Source: Strigamia acuminata (Eukaryota; Arthropoda; Chilopoda; Geophilomorpha; Linotaeniidae). Taken from it: 64,000 nt of DNA. This document shows positions 8,690 through 57,253 of the stretch, in pieces (the stretch's first letter is position 1; every line of letters starts with the position of its first letter). The stretch covers positions 307,460 through 371,459 of the forward strand of contig CASHSZ010000002.1 in assembly GCA_949358305.1 (NCBI GenBank), written 5' to 3'. The notes beneath the pieces are model-generated. The model did no database searches, was not told the origin of the DNA, and was given only the letters and a program-made list of their open reading frames with translations. The translations under genes and the position numbers were made by a program.

Positions 8690-9167
8690 TGTGAGGTTAT
8701 TCCCGGCAATTCTGCAAACGAAATCAAAAGAAACATCAGTTGAAACGGTGCGCGAAACCGACATGCGTGCGCCATCTTTAATTCGTGAGAATATCAGGTG
8801 ATACACGGTTAGAGGCTATTTGCACTCTCCAACAACATAGGATAAATCATTGTCAAGTTTCCAATGATTTGTCCTTTACAATCGCAAATAAAAAACACCG
8901 ACATTAATAATCGATAAACCAAGGAAAAAGGATAAAACACAAATCGCTTTTTCAAGCAGACGACATCAGGGACGTGTGCTGTAAAGGAGAGAATATTCAA
9001 CCGCGGTACATAACAAGCATTGATAAAAATCATTATCGGTTGAACACTGGATCGGGACATTAATTTACAACACACTTGTTACACACACTCGGAAATTGTG
9101 TAACCAATAAATCACGTAACACAGGAACAAATATTTAAGCACTTCAAAATGGGTTTGCAACCCAACA
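8690..9167 (-). repeat. copia-A 3' LTR
   Basis: On the minus strand it runs TGTTGGG to CCTCACA. A possible ATTAAA polyadenylation signal overlaps an AAAGATGGCGC motif at about 8768-8781. It matches 15199-15676 over all 478 bases as read. Confidence 0.92.
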
Positions 9168-9180
9168 AATCCCCCTTTGC
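9168..9180 (-). promoter_or_regulatory. copia-A polypurine tract
   Basis: On the minus strand the sequence reads GCAAAGGGGGATT immediately before the 3' LTR. This is the expected position and composition for the plus-strand DNA primer site. Confidence 0.8.
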
Positions 9181-9185
9181 TTAAA

Positions 9186-12100
9186 CTATTTGTCCATAAC
9201 AAAAATGTGTTCGCAAAGAGTGTTTAACCTTGGTTTCGCTAACCATTTGGTTAAAATATCTGCCACGTTCAGAACCCCGGCAATGTGTCTAATAGAAAAC
9301 GTTCCTTTTTCGAACCAGTCACGGACGAAATGCAGTTTGACATCTATATGTTTATTAGCGCGGTTTTCTATTCTATTTTTCGTATACTGAATCGCCGGCA
9401 TACTGTCGGCATATACGCACGGGGTTGCGCGTTCGACACAAAACATAATGTCTGCGTCGTACAGTCGGTGAAGCCATATAATATCCTTCACCCCATCGAC
9501 CACGGCCAGAAATTCACTCTCCATGATCGACAGGGAGGTCATTGTCTGCTTATGGCAGTTCCATGAGATTGGAACCCCCCCTAGGTACACTATATGGCCC
9601 CCAAAGCTTCTTCTCTTGTCTTGGTCTAGGGCGAAAGACGCGTCAGTGTAGACAGTAAGGGAATCATTCCTACAATTCGATAAATCGATGGCATAGTTTG
9701 GTGTGTTCCCTAAATATCGCAATACCTGCATCAGCATTCCAACATGACGCGCCGAATGTTTTTCATTGTATTGCGAGAGGACTATAACCGAAAAGAGGAT
9801 ATCAGGCCTAGTCCTGCTCGCAATAAAAAGGAGACTCCCGACCAAGTTCCTGTACGGAAATACCGTGTTCACCCGTTCACCCTCTTTAACTTGCTGGATC
9901 ATTGTGCCAGGGGTCACTGGCACTCGCACACGGTGACACGGATCCACTCCATACATCTTACACAGCTTTTCTATGTACTTTCTCTGGTGAATACGGATTC
10001 GCCCCCCGGATCTGTCGAATTCGATGCCCAACAATAGGGTCACCGGACCCAAATCAACAATGTCGAAGAAACCGCGAATCCATTTCAGGACGCATTTTTC
10101 GACATAATCGTCTCTTGAAAAGAGTACGATATCGTCGACGTAGAAAATGATTACTGCTTCGTTGTCCAGAGAATAGACACAGTTCAGTCCTAGCATTGGC
10201 TCAAATCCCAATTGGAGCAGACAATCGTGGAGCGCTTGGTACCACATTCGTCCGCTCTGATGAAGGCCATATAAGGCCTTCAGCAGCATCCAACACTTAT
10301 GTCGGTTTTTCGCTGTCCTGTAACCCTTGGGGACTTCACAATATTGCACTGTATCGAGGTCGCCATAGAGGTAGGCGGCCTTAATATCGATGTGCACGTC
10401 ACGCCAGCCCTTAAGCACTACCAGAGTGCAGAAGAACACGATAACGAGGACGAAATTGACAACGGGGGAAAATACCTCCGTAAAGTCAATTCCAGGCCTC
10501 TGTTTAAACCCTTGGGCCACCAATCGGGCCCGGTAGCGTTGAATTGCTCCGGTGTGATCGCGTTTCATCTTATATATCCATTTTGTCCCCAAAAGCTGTA
10601 CGTCTTTAGGCTTGTCAATTTCACGATAGACTTCTCGTTCATCAAAAATGTCAATCTCGTCCTTCATCGCCCCTTCCCAGTAGGGTTTGTTAATGCCCTC
10701 GATCGCCTCCTCGTAGGTGTCGGGCTCAATTGCACAAAACCCCGCAAAAGGTAAGGGTTCCTCCCCTTCTAACGTTTTGAAGTCGAAAAGGTTCGGATCG
10801 TATGCGTAACCTTCTCCATCGCACCACCGTGCAACATCAGTTCGACTTCTAAGTTTGTCATCATTGGGCGAGAAATAAACAACGTCAACTTTTCCAGCCG
10901 TTGCCCCGGCTTTCCGGACAGACTGGATTCTCCTCCATTTCGTCATATCCAGCGGCAATAACATTGGGTCTGGGGTTTCTTTCTCTTTCACCTTTCCCTT
11001 TTTACCCGAACCACGACGAGTTTGTACCCCAGGAGGGGGTGCCAGATCTGGATCCTCATCGTCGTCAGGATAAACGTTTAAGAAATTTTCATCATCCCCC
11101 TTCGCCCCACCAATTTCTTCAACTGGATTATCTCCATCAATACCCTGCGCCCCACCAATTTCCTCATCATCCCCAATAGGATCAACTCCAATTGCAGGCA
11201 ACTCAATTGTCCGCTGCACATTTGGTCTCAAAGCAGGTCCTGGGGTTCTAGGTGGAATAGGGGGCGGAATGGGCGGTGGGATAGGAGGTGGCATAAAGGG
11301 TGGTGGCTGTCCAACAGGGACAACGGAATCATCGTCATCTTCCTCGGTGTCGGAGGAAGAGTAGCCAAAACTCTTAAATTCTTCGGATCCCCCTTGAGGT
11401 TGTCGAACTGGAGTCTGTAATCTCTTCCCAACCTCGTACCAATACGAGTCCTCGAAGATCCGCACGTGTTTTGACGCAAAAACTTGATTTGTTTTAGGGT
11501 CCCAGATCCTATAGCCCCTAGTGGAGATGGCATAGCCAACCAATGCTCCTGCCCATGCCCTACCCTCCAATTTGCTTTTGCGAGTCTGGGATGGAACATG
11601 AACAAAAGTCTTCGACCCAATGCATTTAATGTGTCGTAAAGATAGTTTCTTATTGAAAAATATCGAGTAAGGTGTTTTGCCTTCAATCCCCTGGTGAGGA
11701 AACCTATTCTTTAAGTAGACGATAGAAGTCGCCAATTCAGCCCAAAGGGGATAGGGGAAACTGTTCTCGAGCATCAAAGCCCTCACCCCGCTAATAATTG
11801 TACGGTTGGCCCTTTCAGCCACGGAATTCATTTCCGGAGAATATGCATTTGTTCGAATGCATTTTAATCCTATCTTGGAAGCGTAAGTGTCCCAATCCCG
11901 AGAAATAAATTCCCCGCCATTATCAGTCTTAATACATTTGACTTTCTTAGAAGTCGTTCTTTCCACTTCAGTTAGCCATCGTTTGAAATGACCCAAAACC
12001 TCCCCTTTGGTTTTCATCATAATTATCCACATATACCGTGAATAGTCGTCCACGAGAATAAAATAGTAATTAGCCCCACCTAAGGAAGGACCCTGTGATT

Positions 12101-14012
12101 TCCCCCAGACATCCATGTGTACAATGTCTAAAATCCCTTTGGTTGAAATCGCAACTATAGGGGGAAAGCTTGCTCTCGTGCTTTTGGCGGTTGCACATGC
12201 GTCACAGGTAGACAATTCCTTAGTGGACAGGTTAATTCCAAATACGTCATCAGACTTTTCTAATTTTGAAATGCCTTTAGCATTGAGATGGCCCATCCTC
12301 GAATGCCATGTGTCCATGGTTTGGGGCCGCTCCTGGTTTCTAACTTTCACATCATCGGCGTTTCCGCCGTTAGCTTTCGCTGTCGCATTAGCTTGGGGAA
12401 TATTCACAGGAGGTGTCTGAACCTCATTCCCCGCTTTCGGCAAATTAATCGCCGCAGGCGCTGACGTTTTCTCGCTCACTTGCGCACTCAAATTAGCTGC
12501 GGACGTCCCTTTATCCGACTTACTCAAACTTTTTAGTAATGCGTTCTTATAGTCTAAAATGGTTAGTAACGGTTGCACAAATCTTTCATCCTTTACAGAT
12601 GATTTGATCAAGTCGAGGACAGCAGCCGCATTCTGTTGCGCAGTTAATGCAGCTGTGTTTACATTCCCAACCTCGATACGACAGTTAACTTTATACAATC
12701 TATTCGAAGTTCGAACTGCCGTAATCGATGGTTCCTCGATCTTATCTTTATAAATAAACATTTCCCCATTTTTGACAAATGTGCACATCCCAGCCTCATC
12801 GGTGCGTCCAAGTGAGATGAGATTCTTCCGAAAATTGGGTGCGAAGAAAACATTCTTCAAAGTAATGTCCCTATGTCGGGTTCCATAAAGCGTGGTGATG
12901 ACAACATTGCCGACTCCTTCGATTTTCGATTTGCCTTCACCTTGTTGTACGCTGAAGTTAGACAGCGGTCTAAAGTCCGAGAACCAACTCCGGTTGAAAG
13001 AGAAATGGTCGGTCGCCCCTGTGTCCACGTACCATTGAGAATCACAATTGCCGTGCGACACAAGGGATAATGGCTGTGCAGGTTTTTCCTCCAATACTGC
13101 CGAGTATAAAGTGTGGGGCTCATCCGCATACGGGTCCAGCTGTGTGAGATTTGCTCTCTGTTGCCCTTTTCCACGGCCCCTGCCACGTCCACTTCCTCGA
13201 TTTAATTGGGCCGGCGAACCAGCAGCGGCAGGAAAAGTCCCAAAAGCTCCTTGCTGTTTTGGAGGCGACGGGCACTCTCTAGCGAAGTGACCCGTCCCTC
13301 CACAATTAAAACAAGTGCCCCGTGAGGGCCCAGTAGCTGTTGAAGGTTTCCCACGTGGTTTCCATTTTTGCTTGGCAAATAATGCAGTATTGTCCATTTG
13401 TTGAGTTAGGACACCGAATTCGTTGCTTGATTCGTAAAGGCGATTGTATTCGCCAAGCAACCTCTCTTTCACGTTTTTAGCCGTGAAGTCAGCATCTTCC
13501 CAATGATACGCTGTCTGTTTAATGTTCTCATATTGTGGGGGTAAGTGGTCCAAATACTGGAAAGCGTGGAACTCGTCGGAGACGTCGATTTTCACGTCTT
13601 TTAATTCCGTGACCTTCCGATCGACTCGCCCCGTGAAAACGAGCATTTCCTCGCCTTCTAACATTTTCATGTTCAAAAAGTCACGGCGCAGTCGAGCGCG
13701 GCGTGCCCTCGTCGTCGGTTGATAAGCGTTTTTTAACGCTTCCCAGACTTTTGCAGCAGTGGGACAAGAGACGGCAATAACTTGCTGAGGTTCCGCGCAG
13801 CTCATGCAAAGGGTTGACATGGCTTTGTCCTCCCGGACTTTGAAGTCTCTTTTCTCCTTGGCTGTGGCGGTGTCAGGCGGTTGTTTCTCCGTGCCATCCA
13901 CGTGACCCCAAACACCGTTGTATTTGAGGAGCAGCTGAACCTGCACCGACCACGTAGCATAGTTCGTACCGTCGAGTTTCTTAATATCCTTATAGTCGTC
14001 GTGTTTTGACAT
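9186..14012 (-). CDS. copia-A Gag-Pol polyprotein with an inserted MBD-like domain
   Basis: One open frame of 1608 codons from the ATG at 14012; an in-frame upstream GTG at 14030 is less likely as start. Domain order with approximate residues: copia Gag 1-220; CCHC zinc knuckle 234-247; retropepsin with D-T-G at 330-332; GAG-pre-integrase H-H-C-C 570-606; integrase D634, D697, E733 (35 residues between the last two); Pro/acidic linker; an MBD/TAM-like segment 1023-1080; reverse transcriptase with YVDD at 1291-1294; RNase H with TDAS near 1456 and MESE near 1498. All catalytic residues are present. The MBD-like segment shows W, R-K-x-G, AGK-D-V, F-S-P, L-R-S-R, A-R-W and F-D-F in the order and spacing of methyl-CpG-binding domains; this domain is not part of standard copia Pol. 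The frame closes just before the polypurine tract. Confidence 0.93.
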   Translation of the reverse strand: MSKHDDYKDIKKLDGTNYATWSVQVQLLLKYNGVWGHVDGTEKQPPDTATAKEKRDFKVREDKAMSTLCMSCAEPQQVIAVSCPTAAKVWEALKNAYQPTTRARRARLRRDFLNMKMLEGEEMLVFTGRVDRKVTELKDVKIDVSDEFHAFQYLDHLPPQYENIKQTAYHWEDADFTAKNVKERLLGEYNRLYESSNEFGVLTQQMDNTALFAKQKWKPRGKPSTATGPSRGTCFNCGGTGHFARECPSPPKQQGAFGTFPAAAGSPAQLNRGSGRGRGRGKGQQRANLTQLDPYADEPHTLYSAVLEEKPAQPLSLVSHGNCDSQWYVDTGATDHFSFNRSWFSDFRPLSNFSVQQGEGKSKIEGVGNVVITTLYGTRHRDITLKNVFFAPNFRKNLISLGRTDEAGMCTFVKNGEMFIYKDKIEEPSITAVRTSNRLYKVNCRIEVGNVNTAALTAQQNAAAVLDLIKSSVKDERFVQPLLTILDYKNALLKSLSKSDKGTSAANLSAQVSEKTSAPAAINLPKAGNEVQTPPVNIPQANATAKANGGNADDVKVRNQERPQTMDTWHSRMGHLNAKGISKLEKSDDVFGINLSTKELSTCDACATAKSTRASFPPIVAISTKGILDIVHMDVWGKSQGPSLGGANYYFILVDDYSRYMWIIMMKTKGEVLGHFKRWLTEVERTTSKKVKCIKTDNGGEFISRDWDTYASKIGLKCIRTNAYSPEMNSVAERANRTIISGVRALMLENSFPYPLWAELATSIVYLKNRFPHQGIEGKTPYSIFFNKKLSLRHIKCIGSKTFVHVPSQTRKSKLEGRAWAGALVGYAISTRGYRIWDPKTNQVFASKHVRIFEDSYWYEVGKRLQTPVRQPQGGSEEFKSFGYSSSDTEEDDDDSVVPVGQPPPFMPPPIPPPIPPPIPPRTPGPALRPNVQRTIELPAIGVDPIGDDEEIGGAQGIDGDNPVEEIGGAKGDDENFLNVYPDDDEDPDLAPPPGVQTRRGSGKKGKVKEKETPDPMLLPLDMTKWRRIQSVRKAGATAGKVDVVYFSPNDDKLRSRTDVARWCDGEGYAYDPNLFDFKTLEGEEPLPFAGFCAIEPDTYEEAIEGINKPYWEGAMKDEIDIFDEREVYREIDKPKDVQLLGTKWIYKMKRDHTGAIQRYRARLVAQGFKQRPGIDFTEVFSPVVNFVLVIVFFCTLVVLKGWRDVHIDIKAAYLYGDLDTVQYCEVPKGYRTAKNRHKCWMLLKALYGLHQSGRMWYQALHDCLLQLGFEPMLGLNCVYSLDNEAVIIFYVDDIVLFSRDDYVEKCVLKWIRGFFDIVDLGPVTLLLGIEFDRSGGRIRIHQRKYIEKLCKMYGVDPCHRVRVPVTPGTMIQQVKEGERVNTVFPYRNLVGSLLFIASRTRPDILFSVIVLSQYNEKHSARHVGMLMQVLRYLGNTPNYAIDLSNCRNDSLTVYTDASFALDQDKRRSFGGHIVYLGGVPISWNCHKQTMTSLSIMESEFLAVVDGVKDIIWLHRLYDADIMFCVERATPCVYADSMPAIQYTKNRIENRANKHIDVKLHFVRDWFEKGTFSIRHIAGVLNVADILTKWLAKPRLNTLCEHIFVMDK

Positions 14013-15184
14013 CACGACGACACAATGCACAATAATAATGAAGGATGCACGAAAAAATCACTAAATTCGGAAATTATTCCGCACAAAACACTTCACTAGA
14101 ATCAAATCACACAGTGCACACTTGTCACCCACCAAAAATGAAGGCGAAAAAACAATTCCACCCGTGGGCAAACCGCTATAAGAGCGGCGATCAAACCTTG
14201 ACTGGTCGTTCCCCAACTCTTCCGTCCGACCTCCTAGGGTCGCGGGATCGGTTGGGTGGCCGTGAACAAGCCCAGACAAGAATACAGTGCCACGTGCCCG
14301 ACTGGACGTAGGGTGGCACCGATACTAAGAGGGGACCAAAAACAAAAACTTAAAATTAACAAAGTTTCACGACAAAATGGTAAATACACTTTTGCGTTGT
14401 TAAGATGGGCGGATTGCGGGATCCGATCGTCGCAATCGCTTCCGTCCAGCGTAGAACGTTGTTTAGACGTTATCGGTGCGCGGAAATGGGGCTGACGCGC
14501 TACCGCTCGCACACGTCCGTGCAAAGCGGGGAAAAACGATCCAAAATCGTCGTCGCGCCCGTCCGCGCCTTCGTGTAGCACTCCGGGGTGCAAAACACGG
14601 CTTTTCCGGTCAAATATTGTCGTGTACGCAGACTTATGCGTACAGAGACACTCGAAATTGGTTTCCACCGTCGACGGCGATGAAAATCCAAACAAAAATG
14701 GCCGCTGGTGAGGATTTGTTCTCCACCGGCGATCCACTGCTGATTTCCGATCGTTTTCGGTAATTTTCGCCTGATTCGGGGCGAAAATGCGTCGTATCGA
14801 CGTTGATTCTCGTTGTTTCGGCGAGAATAATCGTCGTCTCGGCAAAAAGCTGGCGTCTAGGCGTGTATCGGCCCGAAAACACGTCGTTGCTACGTCGGCT
14901 GCACTGCCGAATCCAAAATGGCCGCCGAAGAAAATTTGCTTCGTAACGGCGTGGAAAAGTGCTTATTTCGCACTGAAAATAAATATTTCGACACCGCTTA
15001 CTGTCGTAATAGTCCGTTGTACTGTCCGCACACACAATCCCGACGATTTGAAAAAGTTGGCGAAGTTATTTCGCACGTCGCCGGCGATTCGTGTCTGCAA
15101 CGACCTCGGCCGACGTCCTGCACTCGTTTCGTCTCGAAATGTTCCGGAAAACTCCCAAAAACTGCTGGCCTTATCGTCGCACAG
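14013..15184 (-). other. copia-A leader (untranslated)
   Basis: About 1.17 kb between the primer-binding site and the Gag start. It has GC-rich segments and several GCCGCCAT/ATGGCCGC motifs (for example near 14699 and 14918), resembling motifs in the leaders of copia-B and copia-C. Short open frames here are not shared with the other elements. It probably holds packaging and dimerisation signals (inference). Confidence 0.6.
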
Positions 15185-15196
15185 CCTCTGCTACCA
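15185..15196 (-). promoter_or_regulatory. copia-A primer-binding site (initiator Met tRNA)
   Basis: On the minus strand TGGTAGCAGAGG starts two bases after the 5' LTR. It is complementary to the 3' end of metazoan initiator tRNA-Met (CCTCTGCTACCA). The same 12-mer occurs in copia-B and in every visible copia-C unit junction. Confidence 0.85.
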
Positions 15197-15198
15197 CT

Positions 15199-15676
15199 TG
15201 TGAGGTTATTCCCGGCAATTCTGCAAACGAAATCAAAAGAAACATCAGTTGAAACGGTGCGCGAAACCGACATGCGTGCGCCATCTTTAATTCGTGAGAA
15301 TATCAGGTGATACACGGTTAGAGGCTATTTGCACTCTCCAACAACATAGGATAAATCATTGTCAAGTTTCCAATGATTTGTCCTTTACAATCGCAAATAA
15401 AAAACACCGACATTAATAATCGATAAACCAAGGAAAAAGGATAAAACACAAATCGCTTTTTCAAGCAGACGACATCAGGGACGTGTGCTGTAAAGGAGAG
15501 AATATTCAACCGCGGTACATAACAAGCATTGATAAAAATCATTATCGGTTGAACACTGGATCGGGACATTAATTTACAACACACTTGTTACACACACTCG
15601 GAAATTGTGTAACCAATAAATCACGTAACACAGGAACAAATATTTAAGCACTTCAAAATGGGTTTGCAACCCAACA
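15199..15676 (-). repeat. copia-A 5' LTR
   Basis: Same 478-bp sequence as 8690-9167, adjacent to the primer-binding site. It is expected to drive minus-strand transcription of the element. Confidence 0.92.
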
Positions 15677-23500: not shown

Positions 23501-25948
23501 GGATGGGACGGCGGATGAGATTGTGGGGGGGGTTGTGGATGAGATCGTGGAGGAGGTGGGGAAGGCGAGGGCGGCGGAAGAGACTGTGTCGGAGACGGAA
23601 AAGGAGATGGCGGTGGAAGAGACTGTGTCGGAGACGGAGAAGGAGAAGGCGGTGGAAGAGACTGTGTCAGGGAAGGAGGTGGAGAAGGAGACGGTGGTGG
23701 AAGAGACTGTGTCGGAGACGGAGAAGGAGAAGGCGGTGGTAGAGACTGTGTCGGAGACGGAGAAGGAGAAGGCGGTGGAAGAGACTGTGCCGGAGAAGGA
23801 GGTGGAGAAAGAGATGGCGGTGGAAGAGACTGTGTCGGAGACGGAGAAGGAGAAGGCGGTGGAAGAGACTGTGTCAGGGAAGGAGGTGGAGAAGGAGACG
23901 GTGGTGGAAGAGACTGTGTCGGAGACGGAGAAGGAGAAGGCGGTGGTAGAGACTGTGTCGGAGACGGAGAAGGAGAAGGCGGTGGAAGAGACTGTGCCGG
24001 AGAAGGAGGTGGAGAAAGAGATGGCGGTGGAAGAGACTGTGTCGGAGACGGAGAAGGAGAAGGCGGTGGAAGAGACTGTGTCGGAGACGGAGAAGGAGAA
24101 GGCGGTGGTAGAGACTGTGTCGGAGACGGAGAAGGAGAAGGCGGTGGAAGAGACTGTGTCGGAGACGGAAAAGGAGAAGGCGGTGGAAGAGACTGTGTCG
24201 GAGACGGAGAAGGAGAAGGCGGTGGAAGAGACTGTGTCGGAGACGGAAAAGGAGAAGGCGGTGGAAGAGACTGTGTCGGAGACGGAGAAGGAGAAGGCGG
24301 TGGTAGAGACTGTGTCGGAGACGGAGAAGGAGAAGGCGGTGGAAGAGACTGTGTCGGAGACGGAAAAGGAGAAGGCGGTGGAAGAGACAGTGTCAGGGAA
24401 GGAGGTGGAGAAGGAGACGGTGGTGGAAGAGACAGTGGAGGAGATGGGAATAGTGTGGCCGGAGATGGAGGTGGAGTTGGAGAAGGAGAAGGAGACGTGG
24501 AAGGAAACGGCGGTGGAAGAGGCAGTGGAGGAGAAGGAAAAGGAGAAGGAGACGGCGACGGAACCGAAGAAGAGGAAGTGTGTGAGGAAAGGGGGTGCGA
24601 AAAAGAAACGGAAGACCGTTGAGAAGGTGGAAAAGGAAGTATTCGAGGTAACGTAGTAACTGACCATTTTATTTTGACAATCAACGTGATCGCGTTCCAA
24701 TTTGAAATTGAAAAGCGATCACGTTGATTTGACGTAAATTAATAATTCCCGCGCGCGCACTATAATTTAACCCGCAAATTTAATTTGCCGCGCGCGCATT
24801 GAGCGGATTGATCGTATGAATCCGACCCGCGCACAAACTTGGATTCGACATGCAATATCGTATATTTATTTGCCCGTCTGTTTGTTCGTTTATTCATTTA
24901 TTTATTTTTTTTTTTTTCTCCAGTCGTTGCCCAGCACATCAGGGTGCACTTGGACGATGCCAAGCGTTGTGACGGTCCCGTCGTCACCAGACCTGTCACC
25001 GCCGCGGTCGCCACCACTTCAACCAACGGCGACATTAGGCAAAATGCCTTTAATGTGCCCCGTCGTGAGGTTGGAACGGCTGCAGTTGCCGATCCTCACA
25101 CCAATGCCACGTCCTGTCATGTCGGCGCCGTGCCCGGTTATGTCGACGCCGTGTTTCACCGTGCCACCATCTGAGCCCATCGCCCCCCCGCCGCCGCAAG
25201 AACAGCAACTGGCGCGTGTCATCGCCAAGCCGCGAAGATCCGCGTCGAAGCGGCCCGCATCACCGTCATGGGAACCCGCGTCGAAAAGGTCGGAGACTCG
25301 AGTCACGCGGTCGACGGAAAAGGTAACCTGTCTGGTCTATTTGTCTTTGATCGTTTGTTCAATCGTTCCTTCCATTTCTTTCAGATACGAAAGGCATCTG
25401 CATCCCAGGGCTCGGTGGTGCCGTCTGGCAGGGCAGGACCGAGTGGGCTTCCGTCCAACCTTCCGTCCAACTTGTCGATGGAGTTGGATCGACGGTTCGG
25501 AGAGTTCCAGAAATGGGTGCTCCGGAAGGTGGGGGAGGTGGAGACGGGGGCGGTGCCAACACGGCAACGACGCCAGGGTGGAGGGAAAGGAAAGAAGGGA
25601 GAAAAACTCCGGACAGAGGGCGGGAAGTCGTTCTATTGTGCTCTGTGCGCCAAACAACCGGGTAATGAGAAACATACATTTGCTTATTTGTTTGTTTGTT
25701 TATTTTTTGTCTAATTTTTATTTTTTTTTTATTTTTTTTTTTCCTTTCCCCTCCCGCGTACCTTAGGGGTGTCGAAATACGGATATTTCAGCGAGGACGC
25801 GTACCGCCATTGGCGCCAACATCACCACCTAGACGCAGTTAAGCGCGAGGATGAAATCTCCAAGAGAGTCAGGAAGCATCTGCGGGACTATTCGCGTAGA
25901 CCCGATCTCCTGTTGCCGGTGGGTATTTAATCAATTAGTCGATTCGTT

Positions 25949-30072: not shown

Positions 30073-30537
30073 TATTGGTTTGCGATGAATTATTTGCGAT
30101 AATTATATTTGTTGTGCATTTCCGAATAGGCACAATAAGCGCGTTACTTCATATATTGTTACGAATGGTCAGCCAGTTGATTCTGCTTTTTAAACTGCGC
30201 TTGTTTCGTACTCCAACTGGCTGTGTCTATGTGATAACGCGCGTCCCGTCGTCTGCTTGTTAAGCGACGATCGTTTAATTTGGTTTGGTATTGTTTATCG
30301 ATTACTTTAGTCTTTACGTTGTATTATTGTAAAGAATAAATCTATTTGGTTATACTAATAGATTTGTTCTCGTTGTTACTCTGTAACCTGAGTTGAGATC
30401 AAATAGCCTCAACCCAGATCACTTGTTTTATGCTTTCATGGTGAATAAAGATGGCGGTCGCGTGTTGCGAACTAACCGCACTTTATAATCGGTTTGCAAG
30501 TTATTTCCGCATGCTCCAGGTCCAAATACGCTCTTCA
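30073..30537 (+). repeat. copia-B 5' LTR
   Basis: 465 bp. It includes AATAAAGATGGCGG at about 30444-30457, which combines a polyadenylation hexamer with a YY1-like motif. The left boundary is set by the GTCTC target duplication. Confidence 0.9.
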
Positions 30538-30539
30538 AA

Positions 30540-30551
30540 TGGTAGCAGAGG
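30540..30551 (+). promoter_or_regulatory. copia-B primer-binding site
   Basis: TGGTAGCAGAGG starts two bases after the LTR. It is complementary to the 3' end of initiator tRNA-Met. Confidence 0.85.
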
Positions 30552-31659
30552 ATTGGCGACGACCAGCGCCGGCCAATTTTAGAAGAATTGAAGAGAAACG
30601 GACATTTTTCCGACTCCAAGAAGTCGCGAAGTGCGCGCCCGCCCAATTCGTCGTGAAAACGGATTTTCGGTGCGGCAAACGTCTGGATTACGTGTGCGGA
30701 CCATTCTGCAAAGGAATAGGATTCCAACGGTGTAAGGAACATTTATTTCGAACGATTTAAACTGTATTTTTGCCGATATAACCGGGCTTTCTCGGGCGGC
30801 GCCATTTTTGTTGAGCTTCGCTGCAGAATACGGCGAAGTTAGTGTGTCTACGCGTGTGTACGGACCGGCACACGCACGCCCAACGATTCTACAACGGAAT
30901 ACGTCGACAGGACGGTATTTTGGAGCAAAGAAGCGTCCCAAAACCGTCAATTTTTTCGAGAAATCACCGTGAATCGACGATTTTGTTACGGCGGCCATTT
31001 TTCGTCAAAAATAGACGGAAAAACGACGATTTGATTCACCGAGAAGTCCTGCACACGATAAGCGTGTGTGTGGGCAATTGTTTCCGTACCTCGCACCAGG
31101 AAAGCGAGTACGAAGGCGCAGACGGGCGCTACGACGATTTTCTCCGCGCTTACACGGATGTGTGTACGCGGATTGCACGTCAGCCGATTCCGTGCGAAGA
31201 CATCGTGAAGCCGACGTTTAATTCAACGTGGGAACCAGTTACGACGCGTGAAACCCGTAACTGGCCAACTTCACATCGGAAACTGTATTTTTCGAATTTT
31301 TCTCGTGAAACTCTGTTATTTCTTAAGGTTTTTGTGTTGGGTCACTTAGAATATTCTGTACCCTTCGGGCAGTCGCCCCAGTACAGTCTCATTCCAGTCT
31401 GGGCTTGTCCGTGGCCAACTAGTCGTCCCGCGTCCCCCAGGTGGGCCGGTCGGAAGCTAGTAGGGCGACCAGATTTGGGTTTTTCATCTCACTTATTGAG
31501 GTGCCCCTTGGGAAGTGTAAAATTATTTCGCCTTCAATTTTTGGGGGCAAATTGCTTCTCCGTGCGACATATTCACGTGTATTGTGAATATTTGTGTTTT
31601 TCTTCGGAAATTTTGTGATTTAGCGATTTGTGCGTCGTTTTTCGTCGAATTTTCTCAAC
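30552..31659 (+). other. copia-B leader (untranslated)
   Basis: About 1.1 kb before the Gag ATG. It contains GGCGGCGCCATTTTTG (about 30795) and GGCGGCCATTTTT (about 30992) motifs. Open frames here are not shared with copia-A or copia-C. Confidence 0.55.
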
Positions 31660-33543
31660 ATGGCAAGTTGGGATCGCCGGGACGACTATAAGGACGTGGA
31701 AAAATTGAATGGAACGAACTATTCGACGTGGAGTGTTCAAATCCAACTCCTTTTGCAATCATATGGAGTTTGGGGCCACGTGACTGGCAAGGAGAAGCCC
31801 TTGCCAGCCACGGCTTCTGCAAAAGAAGTTAGAGAGTTTGACAAGCGCGAGGAGAAAGCGCGCTCCACCATTTGTCTGGCTTGTGGAAAAGCCCAACAGG
31901 TAGTGGCTGTGGCACACGAAGGGGCCAAAGAGGTTTGGGAAGCGCTCAAAGCTGCTTACCAGCCCACTACCAGGGCACGCAAAGCCCGACTTCGTCGCGA
32001 ATTTCTCATGTTGAAACTCCATGAGCAAGAGGAAATGATGGTTTTCCTAGCCAGAGTCGACAGGAAGGCGCTGGAACTGAAAGACGTCAAAATAGACATT
32101 TCCGACGAATTCCTGGCCTTCCAGTACCTGGATCTGCTGCCACATCAATACGAAACGGTCAAGCAGACGGTCTACCACTGGGGAGACCCGGAATTCACCT
32201 CGAAGGCCGTCAAAGAACGTTTATTAGGCGAATATAATCGCCTCTACGAGCAAACGGATGAATTTGGTGTTTCATTGGGCACAATTGAGAATACGGGTGC
32301 CTATTTCACCAAAGGCAGATGGCAACGTGGCCGGGGGGGAAATGCCCCCAGTTCTCCACGCGTCTGTTACAACTGTGGCGGAACAAATCACTTCGCCCGG
32401 GAATGCTCGTCCCCACCAAAACAGCAACAAGGTGCTACGAGAGGAAACCCGACAGGACAGTTCAGCAGGGGCAGTCAACGAGGGAAGAGTCGTGGGAAGA
32501 GCCAGCAGACGGCCAACGTCACGCAAATGGACATTTTTAGCAATTCCCCGGTGTCTTATTTCTCCGCAGCGATTTGCCAAGAACAACCCCCTGTTGTAGT
32601 GTCTTTATTGTCGCATGCGAACTACGATTCGCAATGGTACGTCGACACAGGTGCGACGGACCATTTTTCGTTCAACAAAACCTGGTTTTCGGACTTTAAA
32701 CCATTGACTGGTTATTCTGTTCAACAAGGAGACGGAAAGTTGAAAATCGAGGGCATTGGAAATGTGACTTTAGTTTCGATTAATGGACAACAAACACGTG
32801 AACTAACGTTGAAAAACGTTTATTACGCACCCAACTTCAAAAAGAATTTGATTTCTTTAGGTCGTACGGATGAAGCTGGGGCGACAACCATTGTGAAGAA
32901 TGGTAGAATGTTTATTTATGATGTGACAATTGATGACCCTTCTATCACTGCGATCCGTACGAGTGATAGGATGTACAAAGTCAATTGTCGCATTAATGCA
33001 AAGAATTCTGTAAACACTGTTGCATTGTCTGCGCAACAGAGTGCAACAGTGGCATCTAGTCCACCTTTAGCGGGTGAAGAAATTGTTAAATCTTTACTAA
33101 CACACGTTGATTTTAGAACCGCATTAACCCAAAATTTGAGTAAATCAGGGAAACCTGTACCTGCGAATGAGGGGCAAGCGAAAACTGCGAATAATGCGCC
33201 AGCGATCGTTGCAAACAATGCGAGTATGGGAATTTCGAATCAACAATCGAGTGTTTTGAATGACACACAGTCTAGCTTAGTGGCCAGCAAGGGCAATAAG
33301 CCCAAGGATGCGAAAATTTTGAGAACAATTGTGCAAAACAATTTAACAAATGGAAATGGGGTTGTAAATGGAAAGAATACTCCCATTAAACCAGATAAAC
33401 CCCAAACGATGGACATCTGGCACTCTCGGATGGGACACCTTAATGCAAAGGGAATTGCATTGTTAAACAAATCTACTGAAGTGTTTGGTTTGAAGCTGTC
33501 CAACACGGAATTGTCGAGTTGTGATGCCTGTTCGAGGGCGTAG
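31660..33543 (+). pseudogene. copia-B polyprotein, upstream half (Gag-protease-GAG-pre-integrase)
   Basis: The ATG at 31660 opens 627 codons ending at TAG 33541-33543. Approximate residues: Gag 1-220, CCHC knuckle 236-249, retropepsin D-T-G at 329-331, then the GAG-pre-integrase zinc-binding motif, both H and both C present. The TAG falls three residues after the second pair of zinc ligands (C-D-A-C), where copia-A has a lysine codon. The downstream frame is in phase, so this is a single substitution. Upstream in-frame GTG at 31630 is not needed as start. Confidence 0.85.
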
Positions 33544-36504
33544 AGCACACGTGCCAGTTTCCCCCCCATTGTGAACATTTCGACCAAAGGGATTTTGGAA
33601 ATCGTCCATTTAGACGTGTGGGGCCCTTCACCAGTTAAGAGCATAGGTGGGGCGTTCTACTATTTGGTCATGGTCGATGACTTTTCACGATTGATGTGGA
33701 TCGTGATTATGAAGAAAAAGAGCGAAGTTTTGGGCCATTTTAAGAAGTGGTTAACCGAAATTGAAAGAACGACTTCTAGGAAAGTCAAGTCGATTAAAAC
33801 TGACAATGGAGGGGAATTTGTGTCCAAACAATGGGATGAATATGCCGGTGGCATTGGACTGAAGTGTATGCGAACGAACGCATACAGCCCTGAGATGAAC
33901 TCAGTCGCTGAAAGAACGAACCGGACTATTCTTGGTGGAATTAGAGCTTTAATGATTGAAAATAGTCTTCCTCCATCCCTGTGGGCAGAACTCGCAGTTT
34001 CTGTCGTTTATTTAAAGAACCGGTTTCCACATGCGGGATTGGGGGGAAGAACGCCTTATAATGTGTTTTTCAATAAGAAATTATCCCTACGACATGTCAA
34101 ATGCATTGGTGCTTTGACTTATGTGCATGTCCCTTCGCAGACAAGGGCTGGGAAGTTACAAGAGAGAGCATGGGCGGGGGCCTTAGTTGGATATGCCTCT
34201 TCCACCCGTGGTTATCGGATTTGGGATCCGAACAAAAACCAAGTTTTTCTCTCAAAACACGTTAAAATTTTGGAACAGAATTTCTGGTACGAGAATGTAA
34301 AGAATCCCCCATCTGGCCCATCACCTGCTACTGACGATTCAGATTTATCAGGTGAAGAGTCTTGTAATGACTCTGACACGGACAGTGTTCACAGCGAACC
34401 TATCCCTGAAGAAGAGGTCAAAGTGGTTGAAAAACTCGTGGAGAGACCCATTCAGGCCAGACCACCTGGGGGACCCGACTATGTAGATGCCATGCAATAC
34501 ATCATTGGAGATATACATGGCCTAAATTTTGATGAAATCGGTGGGGCGAAGGGGGATGATAGGGATTTCTTCAATATTTATCCCGACGACGATGAAGGAG
34601 AAGTTGAAGAGGAAGTTGAGGACCCAGATGCAAGTCCTCAATTGTCGCCCCAATTGTCACCCACACCCCCTCGTCGGAACCCGCCTAGAAAAGGGAAAGA
34701 CATTGGCGAACGCACAGCTTCAACGAGTGACTTGTTGCCTCTAGATATGACTTTGTGGCAAAGACGGCAGACTGTACGTCAAAGCGGGGCAACAGCTGGG
34801 AAAGTTGATGTTTGGTACATCACACCAAAGCACGAGAAGCTCCGCAGCCGTGTTGAGGTTGTCCGTTGGTGCAAAGCCGAGGGATATGAATATAAATCGG
34901 AATTGTTTAACTTCAAAGATGTGACTATCGGTTTTGCTGGTTGCTGCTCTGTCGAGCCGGACACGTACGAAGAAGCGGTCAAAGGCGCCAGCAAACCTGA
35001 TTGGGAAAACGCGATGGAAGACGAAATAAATATCTTCAAAGAGCGTGAGGTTTATGTCGAAGTCGACAAAGACCAAGTTAAAGACAAAACCTTATTGGGA
35101 TCAAAATGGATATACAAGTTAAAAAGGGATCACACGGGTACGATTAGAAGATATCGTGCTCGTCTCGTTGCACAAGGCTTCAAGCAGAAGCCAGGCATTG
35201 ACTTTACTGAGGTATTTTCCCCAGTAGTCAATTTTGTGTTAGTCATGATGTTCTTCTGTGTCTTAGTGGTACTGAGGGGCTGGCGTGACGTACACCTTGA
35301 CATTAAGGCCGCATACCTATATGGGGACCTCGACGAAGTGCAATATATCCACATCCCAAAAGGATATCGAACGACTGAAAACCAACACAAATGTTGGGAA
35401 TTGAGAAAGTCTCTTTACGGGCTCCATCAGTCTGGTCGTATGTGGTACCAGCGACTCCACGACCAGCTGATTGAAATTGGATTTGAACCGGTCTTGGGTC
35501 TCAATTGCGTGTATAGCTTGGGCACTGACGCTATACTTATTTTCTATGTCGATGACATAGTATTGTTTTCAAAAGACAACATAGCAGAGGAGTGCGTTTT
35601 GGATTGGATTCAACAATTATTTGAGATTGTCAATTTGGGCCCCGTCACCCTTTTGTTAGGGATAGAGTTTTGTAGGGACGGGGAGAATATCTTTATTCAT
35701 CAACGCGCTTATATTGCAAAGTTGTGTAAGCAATATGGGATTGACTCTTGTCATCGAGTTAGAGTGCCTGGCACTCCGGGCACCATGATCCAAAAGGTTC
35801 AGACGGGGGAACGTGTCAATTCGAGTTTTCCGTATCGGTCTCTTGTCGGCAGTTTGCTCTTCATTGCTAGTCGCACAAGACCCGATATTTTGTTTTCGGT
35901 GATAGTGTTGTCTCAATACAACGAGACTCACTCGACTCGACACGTGAACATGCTGCTCCAAATCATGCGGTACTTGGGGAACACGCCAAACTTCTCTATC
36001 AACTTGGGAAACTGCCAAAGCGAAAATTTGACCGTTTATACGGATGCGTCCTTCGCATTAGACCAGGACAAACGTCGAAGCTTTGGTGGGCACATCATCT
36101 ACCTGGGAGGTGTCCCAATCTCATGGAACTGCCATAAGCAGACCATTACAGCACTTTCCATTATGGAAAGCGAATTTTTGGCGGTGGTCGATGGTGTAAA
36201 GGAGATAATTTGGTTGGAGCGCATATTTGGTGCGGATGTGATGATGGATGGGCTCAACCGGGAAATACCATGTGTTTACGCTGATTCAATGCCAGCGATC
36301 CAATATGCGAAGAATCGCATAGAAAATCGCGCAAACAAACACATTGATGTTAAACTGCATTTCGTGCGCGACTGGTTTGAAAAAGGTGTTTTTCGAATCA
36401 GACATATCCCGGGAACCCTTAACGTAGCCGACCTTATGACCAAGTGGCTATCTCGCGCAAAACTAGATGCATTGTGCGAGCATATTTTTGTAACGGCAAA
36501 GTAG
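33544..36504 (+). pseudogene. copia-B polyprotein, downstream half (integrase-MBD-like-RT-RNase H)
   Basis: Same frame as the upstream half. Integrase D near 33613, D near 33802 and E about 36 codons later are all present. An acidic linker follows (with IGGAKGDD and YPDDDE shared with copia-A). An MBD/TAM-like segment lies at about 34744-34920, with W, R-Q-S-G, TAGKVDVWYI-T-P, K-L-R-S-R, V-R-W and F-N-F in MBD order. The reverse transcriptase has YVDD near 35545 and RNase H has TDAS near 36040. The half lacks its own Gag and would need readthrough or another start to be translated. Otherwise it looks undamaged. Confidence 0.85.
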
Positions 36505-36521
36505 TTCATCGAAGGGGGATT

Positions 36522-36986
36522 TATTGGTTTGCGATGAATTATTTGCGATAATTATATTTGTTGTGCATTTCCGAATAGGCACAATAAGCGCGTTACTTCA
36601 TATATTGTTACGAATGGTCAGCCAGTTGATTCTGCTTTTTAAACTACGCTTGTTTCGTACTCCAACTGGCTGTGTCTATGTGATAACGCGCGTCCCGTCG
36701 TCTGCTTGTTAAGCGACGATCGTTTAATTTGGTTTGGTATTGTTTATCGATTACTTTAGTCTTTACGTTGTATTATTGTAAAGAATAAATCTATTTGGTT
36801 ATACTAATAGATTTGTTCTCGTTGTTACTCTGTAACCTGAGTTGAGATCAAATAGCCTCAACCCAGATCACTTGTTTTATGCTTTCATGGTGAATAAAGA
36901 TGGCGGTCGCGTGTTGCGAACTAACCGCACTTTATAATCGGTTTGCAAGTTATTTCCGCATGCTCCAGGTCCAAATACGCTCTTCA
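36522..36986 (+). repeat. copia-B 3' LTR
   Basis: Matches 30073-30537 with one difference noticed. It is preceded by the GAAGGGGGATT polypurine tract. Confidence 0.9.
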
Positions 36987-40273: not shown

Positions 40274-42132
40274 TCACGGCAATCTACCGGCGCCGGCTTC
40301 GTGGAGTTGGAAACAATTGCGGTAGCGTGGGCGACATAGGTGGGTCCGGCAGGGAGCGCACCAGAAACTGCTCTCGTGGCGTTCTTTGTGGACCTCGCGA
40401 CACACCACGCATCGACAACTTTTCCCCGCGCGCTCCATTCGATGGACGACGGGTCCAGTAGGTAGGGCCGCGCGCGAGGCCGTGGTCGTCGTCCTCGTCC
40501 TCTCCCGAGCCAAGAGTTGAGCGACAAGTGCCCTTCGGAATTGTAATTGCGATCGATCGCCGCGCGCGGGGGCTGTGACTTCGCGCATGTTGATTCGGGC
40601 GTTGACACACACTGCGGGGAATAAATGGAAAACGACGAGTCGAGATTAAGATTGTAACGATAACAATAATGATAATAATCAGAGATTGGGGCCTTGATCC
40701 CACCTTGATTCAGCTTTTGAAAGAAGAAGTATCGGTGCCAATAACTGGACCGGCGTCCGATGTGGAATGAGGAGACGAGTCGGTTCAAGACGTCTACCCA
40801 ATGAAAATTTTCGATGTAGGACAGTGCGGGCGCCGGACATGCAATATCCACGTTCCTGCCACCGATACGACGCAAGACACGGCCGGCCGCTGACAGTGGG
40901 TCGACGTTCGTACTGAGCAAACTCACGGTGGTTGTGTCTCGCCACGCAGTGAGCACCAACCGACCGTTTTGTCGTTGTATGAAATCGCCTACAAAAAAAA
41001 AAAAAATGAGAGAGATAGATAGATAGATAGAATAAAAATTAATAATTGAATGAATCAAACGCGCGTTCACGTCCGAGCAAATGCGTTACCTCTCCGGTTG
41101 CCTTGATATCGTCTGAGTGTCGAAAAATCTGATGGCATCTGGGCCGAATTGGCCCGCAGCGTCCCCACGGCCATGGTGTTGTGGCGGGTGAAGAGGTGTT
41201 CGAATAACACGGCGGACGAAAATCGATTATCGCAGGCGATAGTGTACCCCATGCCGAGATAGTGTCTGGCCACGTATACGACGATGCGTCCGAGGACACT
41301 ACCCGGATACCTAGCAAGTTTGGAGTAAAGCAATCCGAGGTGAAATAGAAAAGACAATGAATTGACTCACTCTGGTTCCGGCTCTTCGTCCGGGTCAAAA
41401 TACATCTTGGTGCGCTTACCCAAGTGCACCTCGTCGTTCAGCACGTAGCCGGTGCCCGCTTCGCACAACGTGAAAAGTTCAAATCCCCATTTGATGGGTT
41501 TGGCCGGTTGGAAGACCTGGAAGAAATTTGCCGAACGAATGAACAAATGTAGACAACTGGATGAATAAATAAATGTACGCACTTTTATCTTTGATCGACC
41601 TCGAAAGGCGATCATCGACTCGTCAATGCAGAGCGTCGTCCTTGGTTGCCGACATGCGCGGAAGCGTTTGTTGACCAGGTCGGCGAACAAGCGAACTTTC
41701 ATCGCGCGGTCGTCCTGTTCGCGTTCTTTCAAAAATGACACCCTTTCCGCCGTTGTGCTGCCGCCATCGGGGCCGCGTGCAGAGCCGGTAACGTGCAACC
41801 GTTGGTAGGACGGTTGCGTGCCGTAATGAAGGTACCGCGAAATCTCCTGAAACCTCTTGTGTGTCATGGCTCGCCCAACGGCCGGTGCACCGAGATCACC
41901 GACGTTGCTGCTCGACCAGTAGTGTCGCAATTCGGGTTGTTTGTTGTAGCCGGCCAAGACGTGGATCCCTAGATATACATAAAACTCATCGAGCGTTAGA
42001 GGGCGGACCCGCGCGCGCGCCCTTGTCGCTGTCCCTCTCGGTTGTGGCGGGTGTTGCGGTCGAGACGGAAGTCGGGGCTGTCGCCCGGCGGCCAGCTCGG
42101 CTGCCCTTCTGTCGGCCGCGGTGATACATATA
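40274..42132 (-). CDS. piggyBac-type transposase with four introns, 5' end truncated
   Basis: Minus-strand exons 42132-41583 (5' incomplete), 41516-41371, 41310-41090, 40988-40704, 40611-40274. Introns are 66, 60, 101 and 92 nt, all GT-AG, and the frame is continuous across every junction. DDE_Tnp_1_7 features in order: LTLDEFYVYLGIHVLAGY; first Asp in CIDESMIAFRGRS; KPIKWGFELFTLCEAGTGY; second Asp in ACDNRF; third Asp in FHWVD. A C-terminal Cys-rich zinc ribbon follows (C-x2-C...H...C-x2-C...C...H). The catalytic Asp triad looks intact. The apparent start codon lies inside the terminal repeat of the transposon at 42133-43463, so the true N terminus is missing here. No piggyBac terminal repeats or TTAA were identified. 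It may be a domesticated host gene. Confidence 0.8.
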
Positions 42133-43463
42133 CTAGTCAAATCCATATATCCTCATACTCCTGTGAAAGTGATAGAAGTAAAATATTTGGATCGACCTCA
42201 AATTAAATCTAGTTTTAATCAAATCTTGAAATTTTAAGCAGTTAAATAGATACATCTGAAGAAAGTATAAACAAAATTTCATGCCAATCGAGCTTGAATT
42301 AATAAAAATAGAAGCATATTTCAAAGTAACATTTGATTCATATATCCTCATACCAGCTTGCACATGGTACAAATATCTTCATACTCTGTATTTTAATGTA
42401 AAAATATTTACATTCACAAAATAGTTTTATGTAAATATGATCTTGCTAGTAAGAATAGCATAAAACCTTTCAATTATAGATATTTTGTCAGTAAAATGTC
42501 TCCAAAAAAGGCTGTTGTGAGCGCTGAAACATGACTGTATTGGACAAGTTGCACATTGACCTGGGTATTTTCCTTTTAAAACTTATAGTATTCCCTTTAA
42601 GAACAGCAGTATGTTCTTGATTTCATCTTTTATCATACTGCTACTGGTTAGCGAGTTCATATGACCACTGAAAAAACCTGATATCTGGTTTATCAAGGCC
42701 TGAAAATTTCACCCATATGTGCCACAGAACCGCCACTCAATTTTTCACCTGTTTGCACATCATCATCAACTTCCAGTCATGCCAATTGCTTCTCCTACAT
42801 CTAAATTAAGTTATTTTAATGCAAAAATGTGACAAAGTACATTAACACATCTAGAACATTGTTTTTCATATGATGATCAAATGCTCAATTTTTATTTTTC
42901 TCTGCCACTGGTGCTTTGTAATTGTAAGACACATAAAAATAGTACAAGACGTGCCCAAAAGCTGTATTATATCTGACATTTTACCTGCTACTAGCCTAGC
43001 ACATGTTACCAGGGCACAAATGTCATTTAGTTCTGATCAATGTGCAACTTGTCCAAAACAGTCATGTTTCAGCGCTCACAACAGCCTTTTTTGGAGACAT
43101 TTTACTGACAAAATATCTATAATTGAAAGATTTTATGCTATTCTTACTAGCAAGATCATATTTACATAAAACTATTTTGTGAATGTAAATATTTTTACAT
43201 TAAAATACAGAGTATGAAGATATTTGTACCATGTGCAAGCTGGTATGAGAATATATGAATCAAATGTTACTTTGAAATATGCTTCTATTTTTATTAATTC
43301 AAGCCCGATTGCCATGAAATTTTGTTTATACTTTCTTCAGATGTATCTATTTAACTGCTTAAAATTTCAAGATTTGATTAAAACTAGATTTAATTTGAGG
43401 TTGATCCGAATATTTTACTTTTATCAGTTTCACAGGAGTATGAGGATATATGGATTTGACTAG
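42133..43463. mobile_element. Non-autonomous DNA transposon (MITE-like) with 427-bp terminal inverted repeats
   Basis: Ends read CTAGTCAAATCC at both termini and are flanked by TA (42131-42132 and 43464-43465), consistent with TA target duplication as in the Tc1/mariner group. Inverted arms at 42133-42559 and 43037-43463 are each 427 bp with few mismatches; the 477-bp centre has no transposase frame. The two near-identical 79-codon frames in the arms are artefacts of the repeat. It is inserted at the junction between the piggyBac gene and the first copia-C LTR. Confidence 0.85.
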
Positions 43464-44049: not shown

Positions 44050-45852
44050 TCAGAACACAACAGATTCATCTCTAATCAATTCTGCATTTTTGAGTTCAAT
44101 CAACCGCTCATTATGGACGGGATATGCAGGGTACGTCGGATTCCTGTTATAAAAATCGAATAGGCCTGTATCAAAAACATAACCTTCCGCAACACACCAC
44201 CTTTCCACATCACTTATATTCTGAATCTGGTCACCGCTCGGTGAGGAATAGATAACACTAACCCATTCTGTGTAACTGTCTACTTGGTGTGTTGTGGATT
44301 GTCTTCTCCACCTACTCATGTCTAAGTATTGTTTAAGCCTCGCACCCGTGTCATCTTCAGCGGTGAGACTTAAGCACTGTTCTATTTTAGTTATTTCATT
44401 TTCCAATATCGGTTCATTCACCGTCAACTGACATTCATTGTCATTTGTTTCCATTAAAGCAATATTCCTGTTTTTCTTACATCTCTTCTTACGCCTTTTT
44501 GTCTTTCCACATTCCCCCTCTGTCCTAATGAATTTATATTCACTCACACCTATCGGTTTCTCTGGCGGTGTCGGGGAAATGCCACCTTCTAATGACGCCG
44601 AAGAAATCTCGTGAACTTTCAAGGGGTCAACTTGTTCAAACCCTTCATCAGATTTGGGCTCAAGTTCCAATGCAAACTGTCCTAATCTTTCGCTTCTGTC
44701 CGCAATAATCTCGGAATTATTCATGTCAATCTCCTCATGTACTAACTCTGGAGGATTTTCTACCAGGAATTCAATTCCTTTATCACTAACTTTTCCTTCT
44801 CGTTCCAATTCTTTTAGTTTCTCTTTAATTTCCCCCTCTGTCTCAGCCAGTTTCCTCTCACTTAAGGATGGGGAAATTTCATCCTCTACTGTGTCCACTA
44901 AAGTGGGAGATTCCTGCTCATAAGTGAGGCTCTCATAAAATTCCTCGTCACTTCCAAAATGTTCCCCCTCGTTTTCAATACTTTCGCAATTAACAATGTA
45001 AACTTCTCCGCTCGGTAACAATGGGAGGTTTTCCTCATAGACTCCTTCGCTGTCAACTTCCCTATGTGTTGACAATTTAACTTCATCAACTTTAGAAAAC
45101 GCATCCGCTTTAAAATCAACATGTGTCTTTACGAGATCACACTCAATTTCTCCTAGAAGTTCCTCCTCGTTTTCAACACTTTCGATGCTTGTGCACTCAT
45201 TAGTGCCTACGTCTTCGCTTAACGACGATGGGGGATTCTCAAATTCTACTCGTAATTCAAGCTGTGGAGATGTTGGCACCCCAACAACCGTCGATGGAAT
45301 TTCCATTCTTTCATTCCCGATATCATCTGTTGTTTCATCTCTATCGAGAAATTCCAGAGAGGGTTTTACTTCCCCCTCGTGCCAATAACTCCACTCATGT
45401 ATCTTTAAGTTGTTAGTTTGAAAAACTCTGTCTCTTTGCGGGTCCCAGACCCGATATTTTCTTTGTGGACTAGAATATCCAACTAGAGCGCCCAACCATG
45501 AACACTTCTGTCCGTTCTTAACATGAAAAACCTCAACTTCTGACCCAATACACCTAAAGTGTCGCACAGAGATACATCTGTCATACAATACATTGTATGG
45601 GGTCTTCCAACCTAAATCAGTCCTGGGGGCCCTATTCCTCAAATAGACTATTGTGTTGGCAATCTCCAACCACAAATTACCTGGAAATTTATTTTCTACA
45701 ATCAAATCCTCTACTGTGTTTTCGATGTCTGTATTAGCCCTCTCAGAGATGGGGTCAGCCATTGGGTTCTCAGAATCTACTCTATCAGTTGTAATTCCGG
45801 AATTCCTCATTACTTCTACCCATGCTGTTAATTCTTTTGGGGAAAGATCCAT
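44050..45852 (-). CDS. copia-C frame 2, unit 1: integrase remnant plus MBD-like C terminus
   Basis: 600 codons from an ATG just past an in-frame TAG. Residues 1-130 align with the C-terminal half of the copia integrase. The third catalytic Glu position is kept (ISERANTD, as VAERANRT in copia-A), as are WLEIANTIVYLRNRAP and the GALVGYSS/WDPQ block. A long Glu/Ser-rich linker follows. Residues about 510-567 match the MBD-like segment in position and framework (LDMSRWRRQ, VIYSSPSG, DVERW, FDF), but residues expected to contact methyl-CpG are changed. The frame stops exactly where reverse transcriptase begins in copia-A and -B. No RT or RNase H exists anywhere in the unit. Product, if made, would be a non-enzymatic protein of unknown role. 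Confidence 0.7.
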   Translation of the reverse strand: MDLSPKELTAWVEVMRNSGITTDRVDSENPMADPISERANTDIENTVEDLIVENKFPGNLWLEIANTIVYLRNRAPRTDLGWKTPYNVLYDRCISVRHFRCIGSEVEVFHVKNGQKCSWLGALVGYSSPQRKYRVWDPQRDRVFQTNNLKIHEWSYWHEGEVKPSLEFLDRDETTDDIGNERMEIPSTVVGVPTSPQLELRVEFENPPSSLSEDVGTNECTSIESVENEEELLGEIECDLVKTHVDFKADAFSKVDEVKLSTHREVDSEGVYEENLPLLPSGEVYIVNCESIENEGEHFGSDEEFYESLTYEQESPTLVDTVEDEISPSLSERKLAETEGEIKEKLKELEREGKVSDKGIEFLVENPPELVHEEIDMNNSEIIADRSERLGQFALELEPKSDEGFEQVDPLKVHEISSASLEGGISPTPPEKPIGVSEYKFIRTEGECGKTKRRKKRCKKNRNIALMETNDNECQLTVNEPILENEITKIEQCLSLTAEDDTGARLKQYLDMSRWRRQSTTHQVDSYTEWVSVIYSSPSGDQIQNISDVERWCVAEGYVFDTGLFDFYNRNPTYPAYPVHNERLIELKNAELIRDESVVF

Positions 45853-45864
45853 CCCAGGGCCAAA

Positions 45865-49144: not shown

Positions 49145-49157
49145 CCTCTGCTACCAC

Positions 49158-49624: not shown

Positions 49625-49745
49625 ATTCCCCCTCTGAACAATGTATGGTTACACTCAAACAAAAGGAAAAACCACAAGCCCATCTATTCGATTGTTCCAC
49701 TACTTCCCAAACGGGGGGAAAAACCCTGGTCTGATTGAATAACGG

Positions 49746-51548: not shown

Positions 51549-51560
51549 CCCAGGGCCAAA

Positions 51561-55317: not shown

Positions 55318-55438
55318 ATTCCCCCTCTGAACAATGTATGGTTACACTCAAACAAAAGGAAAAACCACAAGCCCATCTATTCGATTGTTCCACTACTTCC
55401 CAAACGGGGGGAAAAACCCTGGTCTGATTGAATAACGG

Positions 55439-57241: not shown

Positions 57242-57253
57242 CCCAGGGCCAAA

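Follow-up and report, generated by a model that had tools for sequence, protein, structure and literature searches.

Ty1/copia retrotransposons in the genome of the geophilomorph centipede Strigamia acuminata carry a methyl-CpG-binding domain (MBD) in their Pol polyprotein, between the integrase and the reverse transcriptase (RT). Two such elements, here called copia-A and copia-B, lie in the window, a stretch of 64,000 nucleotides of contig CASHSZ010000002.1 (positions 307,460 to 371,459, forward strand; assembly GCA_949358305.1), and belong to a young, high-copy group with relatives in a spider. An earlier note on this DNA had proposed that an MBD inserted in Pol of a young, undescribed copia lineage could read methylated CpG; the presence of the domain in such a lineage has held, whereas methylated-CpG reading by these copies is not supported.

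The domain in copia-A and copia-B

The features of the two elements that bear on this finding are as follows, with positions in the window.

8690-15676, minus strand: copia-A, full-length long terminal repeat (LTR) retrotransposon with identical LTRs and the target site duplication (TSD) GGTTC
15199-15676, minus strand: copia-A 5' LTR, 478 bp, 100% identical to the 3' LTR
8690-9167, minus strand: copia-A 3' LTR, 478 bp, 100% identical to the 5' LTR
9186-14030, minus strand: copia-A Gag-Pol open frame of 1614 amino acids (aa), from the open reading frame (ORF) list and Pfam domains
10773-10940, minus strand: copia-A MBD (residues 1031-1086), PF01429, 39.5 bits, E 4.4e-10
30073-36986, plus strand: copia-B, LTR retrotransposon, LTRs 99.8% identical, TSD GTCTC
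30073-30537 and 36522-36986, plus strand: copia-B LTRs, 465 bp
34756-34920, plus strand: copia-B MBD, PF01429, 40.9 bits

Both MBD scores exceed the curated cut-off of PF01429 (21 bits), so that the profile search proposed in the earlier note returns a significant match in each element, and the excised segments reach 44.2 bits (copia-A) and 45.6 bits (copia-B). The Pfam domains of the copia-A frame follow the order gag, zinc knuckle, Pol_BBD, rve, integrase SH3, spacer, MBD and RVT_2. Integrase SH3, spacer, MBD and RVT_2 succeed one another in copia-B as well, whose ORFs (31630-33543 and 33571-36504) lie in the same register and are interrupted by an in-frame stop at 33541-33543. Gag, Pol_BBD, an integrase ahead of RVT_2, LTRs and a short target duplication identify both elements as Ty1/copia, and the identity of their LTRs agrees with the young age claimed for them previously.

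Among solved sequences, the nearest to the copia-A segment is MBD2 (2ky8, E 8.5e-10) and the nearest to the copia-B segment is MBD1 (1d9n, E 6.2e-8). The AlphaFold2 model of the copia-A domain is predicted to adopt the alpha/beta MBD fold, the 41 highest Foldseek rows being all MBD/TAM folds, and the fold thus resembles an MBD in the structural comparison that had also been suggested. A chance match is ruled out because the domain recurs across many families with open frames, and a host gene because Pol domains and LTRs surround it. The MBD of copia-A and copia-B is therefore genuine.

Copies, relatives and constraint

In the 237.5-Mb genome, a search with the copia-A segment gave at least 150 matching places and one with PF01429 likewise at least 150; scoring covered 150 candidates in each search, out of 1389 and 1092, respectively. 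Merging the two lists and excluding one host exon (C3:20309085) leaves at least 202 distinct places; the same insertion, which the earlier note had thought worth seeking in other copia elements, is thus repeated across this genome as well as in the outside relatives described below. The letters were read for loci L001-L038. Open frames of at least 1600 aa are found in 33 of the 37 rows that are at least 99% identical to copia-A, and in 50 of the 55 rows of a family designated F3.

A protein search with the RT region returned 149 related proteins, 120 of which were examined. In precomputed Pfam annotation, seven of these 120 have an MBD; four of the seven are assigned to the spider Araneus ventricosus, and automatic annotation of spider copia proteins already shows the domain. 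An MBD model built from ten sequences detects it in 17 of the 120, with scores of at least 29 bits, and 15 of the 17 are independent of the model building. Eight of the 17 pass the Pfam listing or cut-off (the seven precomputed and P0022); the MBD of P0009, P0010, P0017, P0018 and P0019 falls below the Pfam cut-off, and P0011, P0013, P0016 and P0020 give no Pfam MBD row at E 0.1. Only a faint MBD-like segment appears in P0003-P0008 (at most 12.5 bits in the MBD model, with alignment by eye), and Pfam gives no MBD row for P0003, P0004, P0005 and P0007 at E 10 or for P0006 at E 0.1, P0008 being outside the scan. A protein search limited to the MBD stretch returned no matches, the RT search having recovered the clade, and the viral_contigs scan gave none.

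Phylogenetic trees were built from 60 and 53 of 117 RT stretches, long or distant rows being dropped from the smaller tree and the stretches of P0037 and P0042 being too short for either. In the 53-row tree, the 26 rows with an MBD or a faint MBD-like segment, five from this genome and 21 from outside (two of them spider), are set apart by a branch supported at 100/99, which is present in 100% of 200 bootstrap trees. All other RT rows lie outside it, including five rows of this genome that belong to an AT-hook-like group presented below. A quick tree of 60 rows gives the MBD branch a Shimodaira-Hasegawa-like approximate likelihood ratio (SH-aLRT) of 99; in the 53-row tree, the four high-copy families, namely copia-A, F3, copia-B and a family with a 1577-aa frame, form a clade of their own (100/100). 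Since the MBD rows form one RT clade, a single acquisition of the domain by copia would be the simplest history. In searches of the open literature aimed at such a fusion, no title or beginning of an abstract described a copia or any other retrotransposon protein with an MBD, which is in line with the earlier remark that no described copia lineage possesses one.

Between copia-A and F3, the MBD has a synonymous divergence (dS) of 0.84 and a non-synonymous divergence (dN) of 0.058, hence a dN/dS of 0.07, and the RT has a dN/dS of 0.06 at dS 2.1. The domain is thus under purifying selection between these two families. This case consists of one good pair, because the other MBD pairs are higher at large dS or saturated: five show dN/dS of 0.15-0.45 at dS 1.1-2.1 and four of the ten pairs are saturated, which weighs against the role proposed below.

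A third, derived copia family, which the earlier note did not list, forms a tandem array at window positions 43459-64000, the copia itself being located at 44050-64000. The array unit measures 5693 bp (first period 5696), the units are 99.9-100% identical, and a 591-bp piece at the array edge resembles a shared LTR. Each unit contains an MBD-like segment.

44152-44310, minus strand: MBD-like segment of the first unit, PF01429 13.3 bits, below the cut-off
49848-50006, minus strand: MBD-like segment of the second tandem unit, in the same 600-aa frame as elsewhere in the array
55541-55699, minus strand: MBD-like segment of the third tandem unit, in the same 600-aa frame as elsewhere in the array
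61234-61392, minus strand: MBD-like segment of the fourth tandem unit, in the same 600-aa frame as elsewhere in the array

The excised segment reaches 18.2 bits, a PDB search with it returned no MBD, and the alignment shows H, S, I and Q at the four contact positions, all of which have lost the MBD residue. A Pfam scan found no RT in the two frames of the unit (580 and 600 aa). Dispersed relatives of the unit are present elsewhere in the genome; because the array reaches the contig end, it may have arisen by recent amplification or be due to the assembly. Elsewhere in the window, an open frame at 41367-42146 (minus strand) resembles by eye a fragment of a piggyBac-type transposase, and at 23561-24414 units of 39 bp and 123 bp are repeated in tandem within a glutamate-lysine-rich open frame.

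Contact residues, CpG content and genomic location

According to excerpts of two publications, two arginines of the MBD read CpG and one tyrosine confers methyl selectivity, and MBD3, which has a phenylalanine at the tyrosine position, has lost most of this selectivity (PMC5240623, PMC9520026). The two arginines and an aspartate (R, D, R) are intact in copia-A, F3, copia-B and the 1577-aa family (L016-L019). The tyrosine position is occupied by Val in copia-A and F3, by Trp in copia-B and by Ile in the 1577-aa family; for the two window elements the alignment reproduces the residues previously read from the sequence. This reading covers the four high-copy families, the 90%, 71-73% and 1567-aa families being outside it. 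R, D and R are conserved in all 17 MBD proteins from outside this genome, and the Tyr in 16 of them, with Phe in the remaining one (the four Araneus rows among them are near-copies). Tyr is also retained in L009-L012 and L014 of this genome, which we judged to be low-copy by their list position and their short or broken frames. The host MBD2/3 protein (locus L083, C5:5733299-5733592 region), found via its MBD_C domain, has Phe at the methyl-sensing place. The MBD of this host gene is split by an intron, and a second host MBD-like exon (L105, C3:20309085-20309201) resembles by eye the TAM of BAZ2-type proteins.

The observed/expected ratio (o/e) of CpG is 1.25 in the window, 1.49 in window DNA outside the three elements and 1.21 in the joined flanks of MBD copia, and those of TpG and CpA are 0.92-1.06 in the window and joined flanks. 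In single flanks, CpG o/e varies between 0.37 and 1.93, four of the 20 lying at 0.37-0.73. Overall, these ratios, as an indirect measure, show no sign of methyl-driven loss of CpG in the compartment around MBD copia.

A useful comparison is provided by copia elements without evident MBD (the RVT_2 list), whose spacers were read in 30 of 150 places (L053-L082), the other 120 being deemed MBD-free from their shorter frames and from the fact that just two of the 150 have an MBD row at a distance of 5 kb or less. In 28 of the 30 (L053-L074, L076 and L078-L082), the spacer between integrase and RT contains RGPGRPK with GRPSK, in a 1388-aa family (L076 being similar), or KRGRPTK, in a 1307-aa family; L075 and L077 show too little spacer. 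These motifs, for which Pfam gives no row, we take to be AT-hook-like. Such elements would thus possess a DNA-binding-type motif in the same spacer as the MBD, but they differ from MBD copia by their AT-rich flanks and by an RT outside the MBD clade. Flanks were taken from the 25 of the 30 loci that were supplied (without L070 and L075-L078), less L073, which has no recognisable end, and L082, a duplicate. The 23 resulting insertions lie in AT-rich DNA, with a GC content of 0.29 near the site versus 0.34 farther out (p 0.03). Compared with them, 20 MBD insertions have 3' flanks with a higher content of GC (0.45 versus 0.325, p 1e-5) and of CpG (61 versus 29 per kb, p 7e-4), and both differences hold when only the 12 insertions more than 3 Mb from an end are considered (GC, p 8e-4; CpG, p 0.03). 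Placed MBD copia copies also gather toward the ends of the eleven large contigs: 114 of 183 are found in the outermost 3 Mb, which make up 29% of the sequence, versus 24 of 147 for the RVT_2 list.

Several observations weigh against a choice of target from these figures. The GC and CpG richness of the MBD copia flanks is like that of the window and of the compartment background, their 60 CpG/kb being comparable to the 61/kb of the whole window and the 74/kb outside the elements. Their CpG o/e does not differ from that of the AT-hook-like set (1.16 versus 1.04, p 0.25), nor is the rise of CpG toward the insertion site significant (p 0.23). RVT_1 elements are likewise numerous in the outermost 3 Mb of the contigs (70 of 142), and MBD copia is only slightly more end-biased than they are (p 0.02 and 0.05); in 1-Mb bins, the correlation with MBD copia (rho) is 0.54 for RVT_1 elements and -0.17 for the RVT_2 list. 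The third family and its relatives are near ends in 13 of 21 cases, although no contact residue survives in the units of the window (this set comprises 22 of 150 rows, at 57% identity or more, with one of the four window units). Regional clustering as a proof of targeting is thus weakened by the RVT_1 control. MBD copia share their compartment with other repeats, and their place at chromosome ends may reflect survival, since the clustering of RVT_1 elements coincides with theirs. TTAGG telomere repeats, as expected of an arthropod, were seen at three of 14 contig starts.

Proposed role and known systems

We consider it about as likely as not that, in the young families, the MBD is a methylation-indifferent tether, predicted to hold the integration complex on CpG-rich DNA. 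It is preferred because Tyr is lost in the four high-copy families and no overall CpG loss is visible nearby, and the tether role is suggested by the position of the MBD, which matches that of the Ty1 targeting domain. In this scheme the MBD would still be attached to the integrase tail once the polyprotein has been processed, bind CpG-bearing DNA and retain the pre-integration complex there, thus selecting the target. The ancestor of the clade would have read methyl-CpG, and loss of Tyr, with the effect known for MBD3, would have freed the tether of the young families from any need for methylation. Steering of integration stays an inference, clustering at chromosome ends being common to RVT_1 elements. 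More doubtful is a wider history in which one deep capture of a host-type MBD in animals served as an integration tether, active families swapped to plain CpG reading through Tyr loss as host methylation faded, and MBD and AT-hook copia came to split the genome by base composition.

Somewhat less likely is that the MBD serves instead the life cycle of the element, by folding or stimulating the RT, by nuclear entry or by partner binding, its accumulation at chromosome ends then reflecting survival in repeat-rich DNA. The similar clustering of RVT_1 elements and of the third family with its relatives is consistent with such a role, as are the six outside clade relatives that keep just a faint MBD-like segment; in an excerpt on Ty1, moreover, the last 115 integrase residues stimulate RT and hold a nuclear signal (PMC9673352). 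The conservation of R, D and R in the four high-copy families and the 17 outside relatives argues against a mere scaffold, because a scaffold would not need the CpG-reading arginines and aspartate. Reading of methylated CpG, which would bring new copies into methylated DNA, is unlikely for the copies described here: V, V, W and I replace Tyr in the four high-copy families, the host MBD2/3 itself has Phe, and CpG o/e is 1.2-1.5 in the window and joined flanks, notwithstanding the low values of four single flanks. For the clade as a whole, the Tyr kept in most outside relatives and in the low-copy loci makes methyl reading likely. A function after insertion, whereby the domain would affect how the CpG-rich copies of the element (58-62 CpG/kb) are silenced or expressed, is very unlikely, as a place beside the integrase would better suit a pre-integration job.

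Uptake of a CpG reader by copia, at the position equivalent to that of the gypsy chromodomains, would represent a second, independent capture of a chromatin reader. Families with and without the methyl-sensing residue are its natural variants; with AT-hook-like copia in the same genome as a built-in comparison, they make the question of target choice by DNA composition or methylation directly testable.

The copia domain resembles MBD2, MBD3 and MBD1 (PF01429) in sequence, predicted fold, the two CpG arginines and the aspartate, but these proteins are not part of a copia Pol, and the high-copy families have V, W or I where MBD3 has Phe. The Araneus ventricosus proteins P0014, P0015, P0037 and P0042 share PF01429 and R, D, R with the centipede elements, and P0014 and P0015 fall in the RT clade; unlike copia-A and copia-B, these spider copia Pol proteins, known here from automatic annotation alone, keep the Tyr. 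The integrase chromodomain of chromoviruses, which are Ty3/gypsy elements, is the classic case of a retrotransposon having taken up a chromatin reader. As in chromoviruses, a chromatin or DNA reader adjoins the integrase tail in MBD copia, but the element belongs to the copia superfamily, the reader is an MBD and it stands ahead of the RT, following the copia order. Finally, the targeting part of Ty1 and Ty5 is located in the C-terminal region of the integrase, as stated for the Ty1 targeting domain in the same excerpt (PMC9673352), and the copia MBD occupies the matching place; the Ty1 and Ty5 parts are short stretches binding host proteins, whereas the copia MBD is predicted to be a folded DNA reader.
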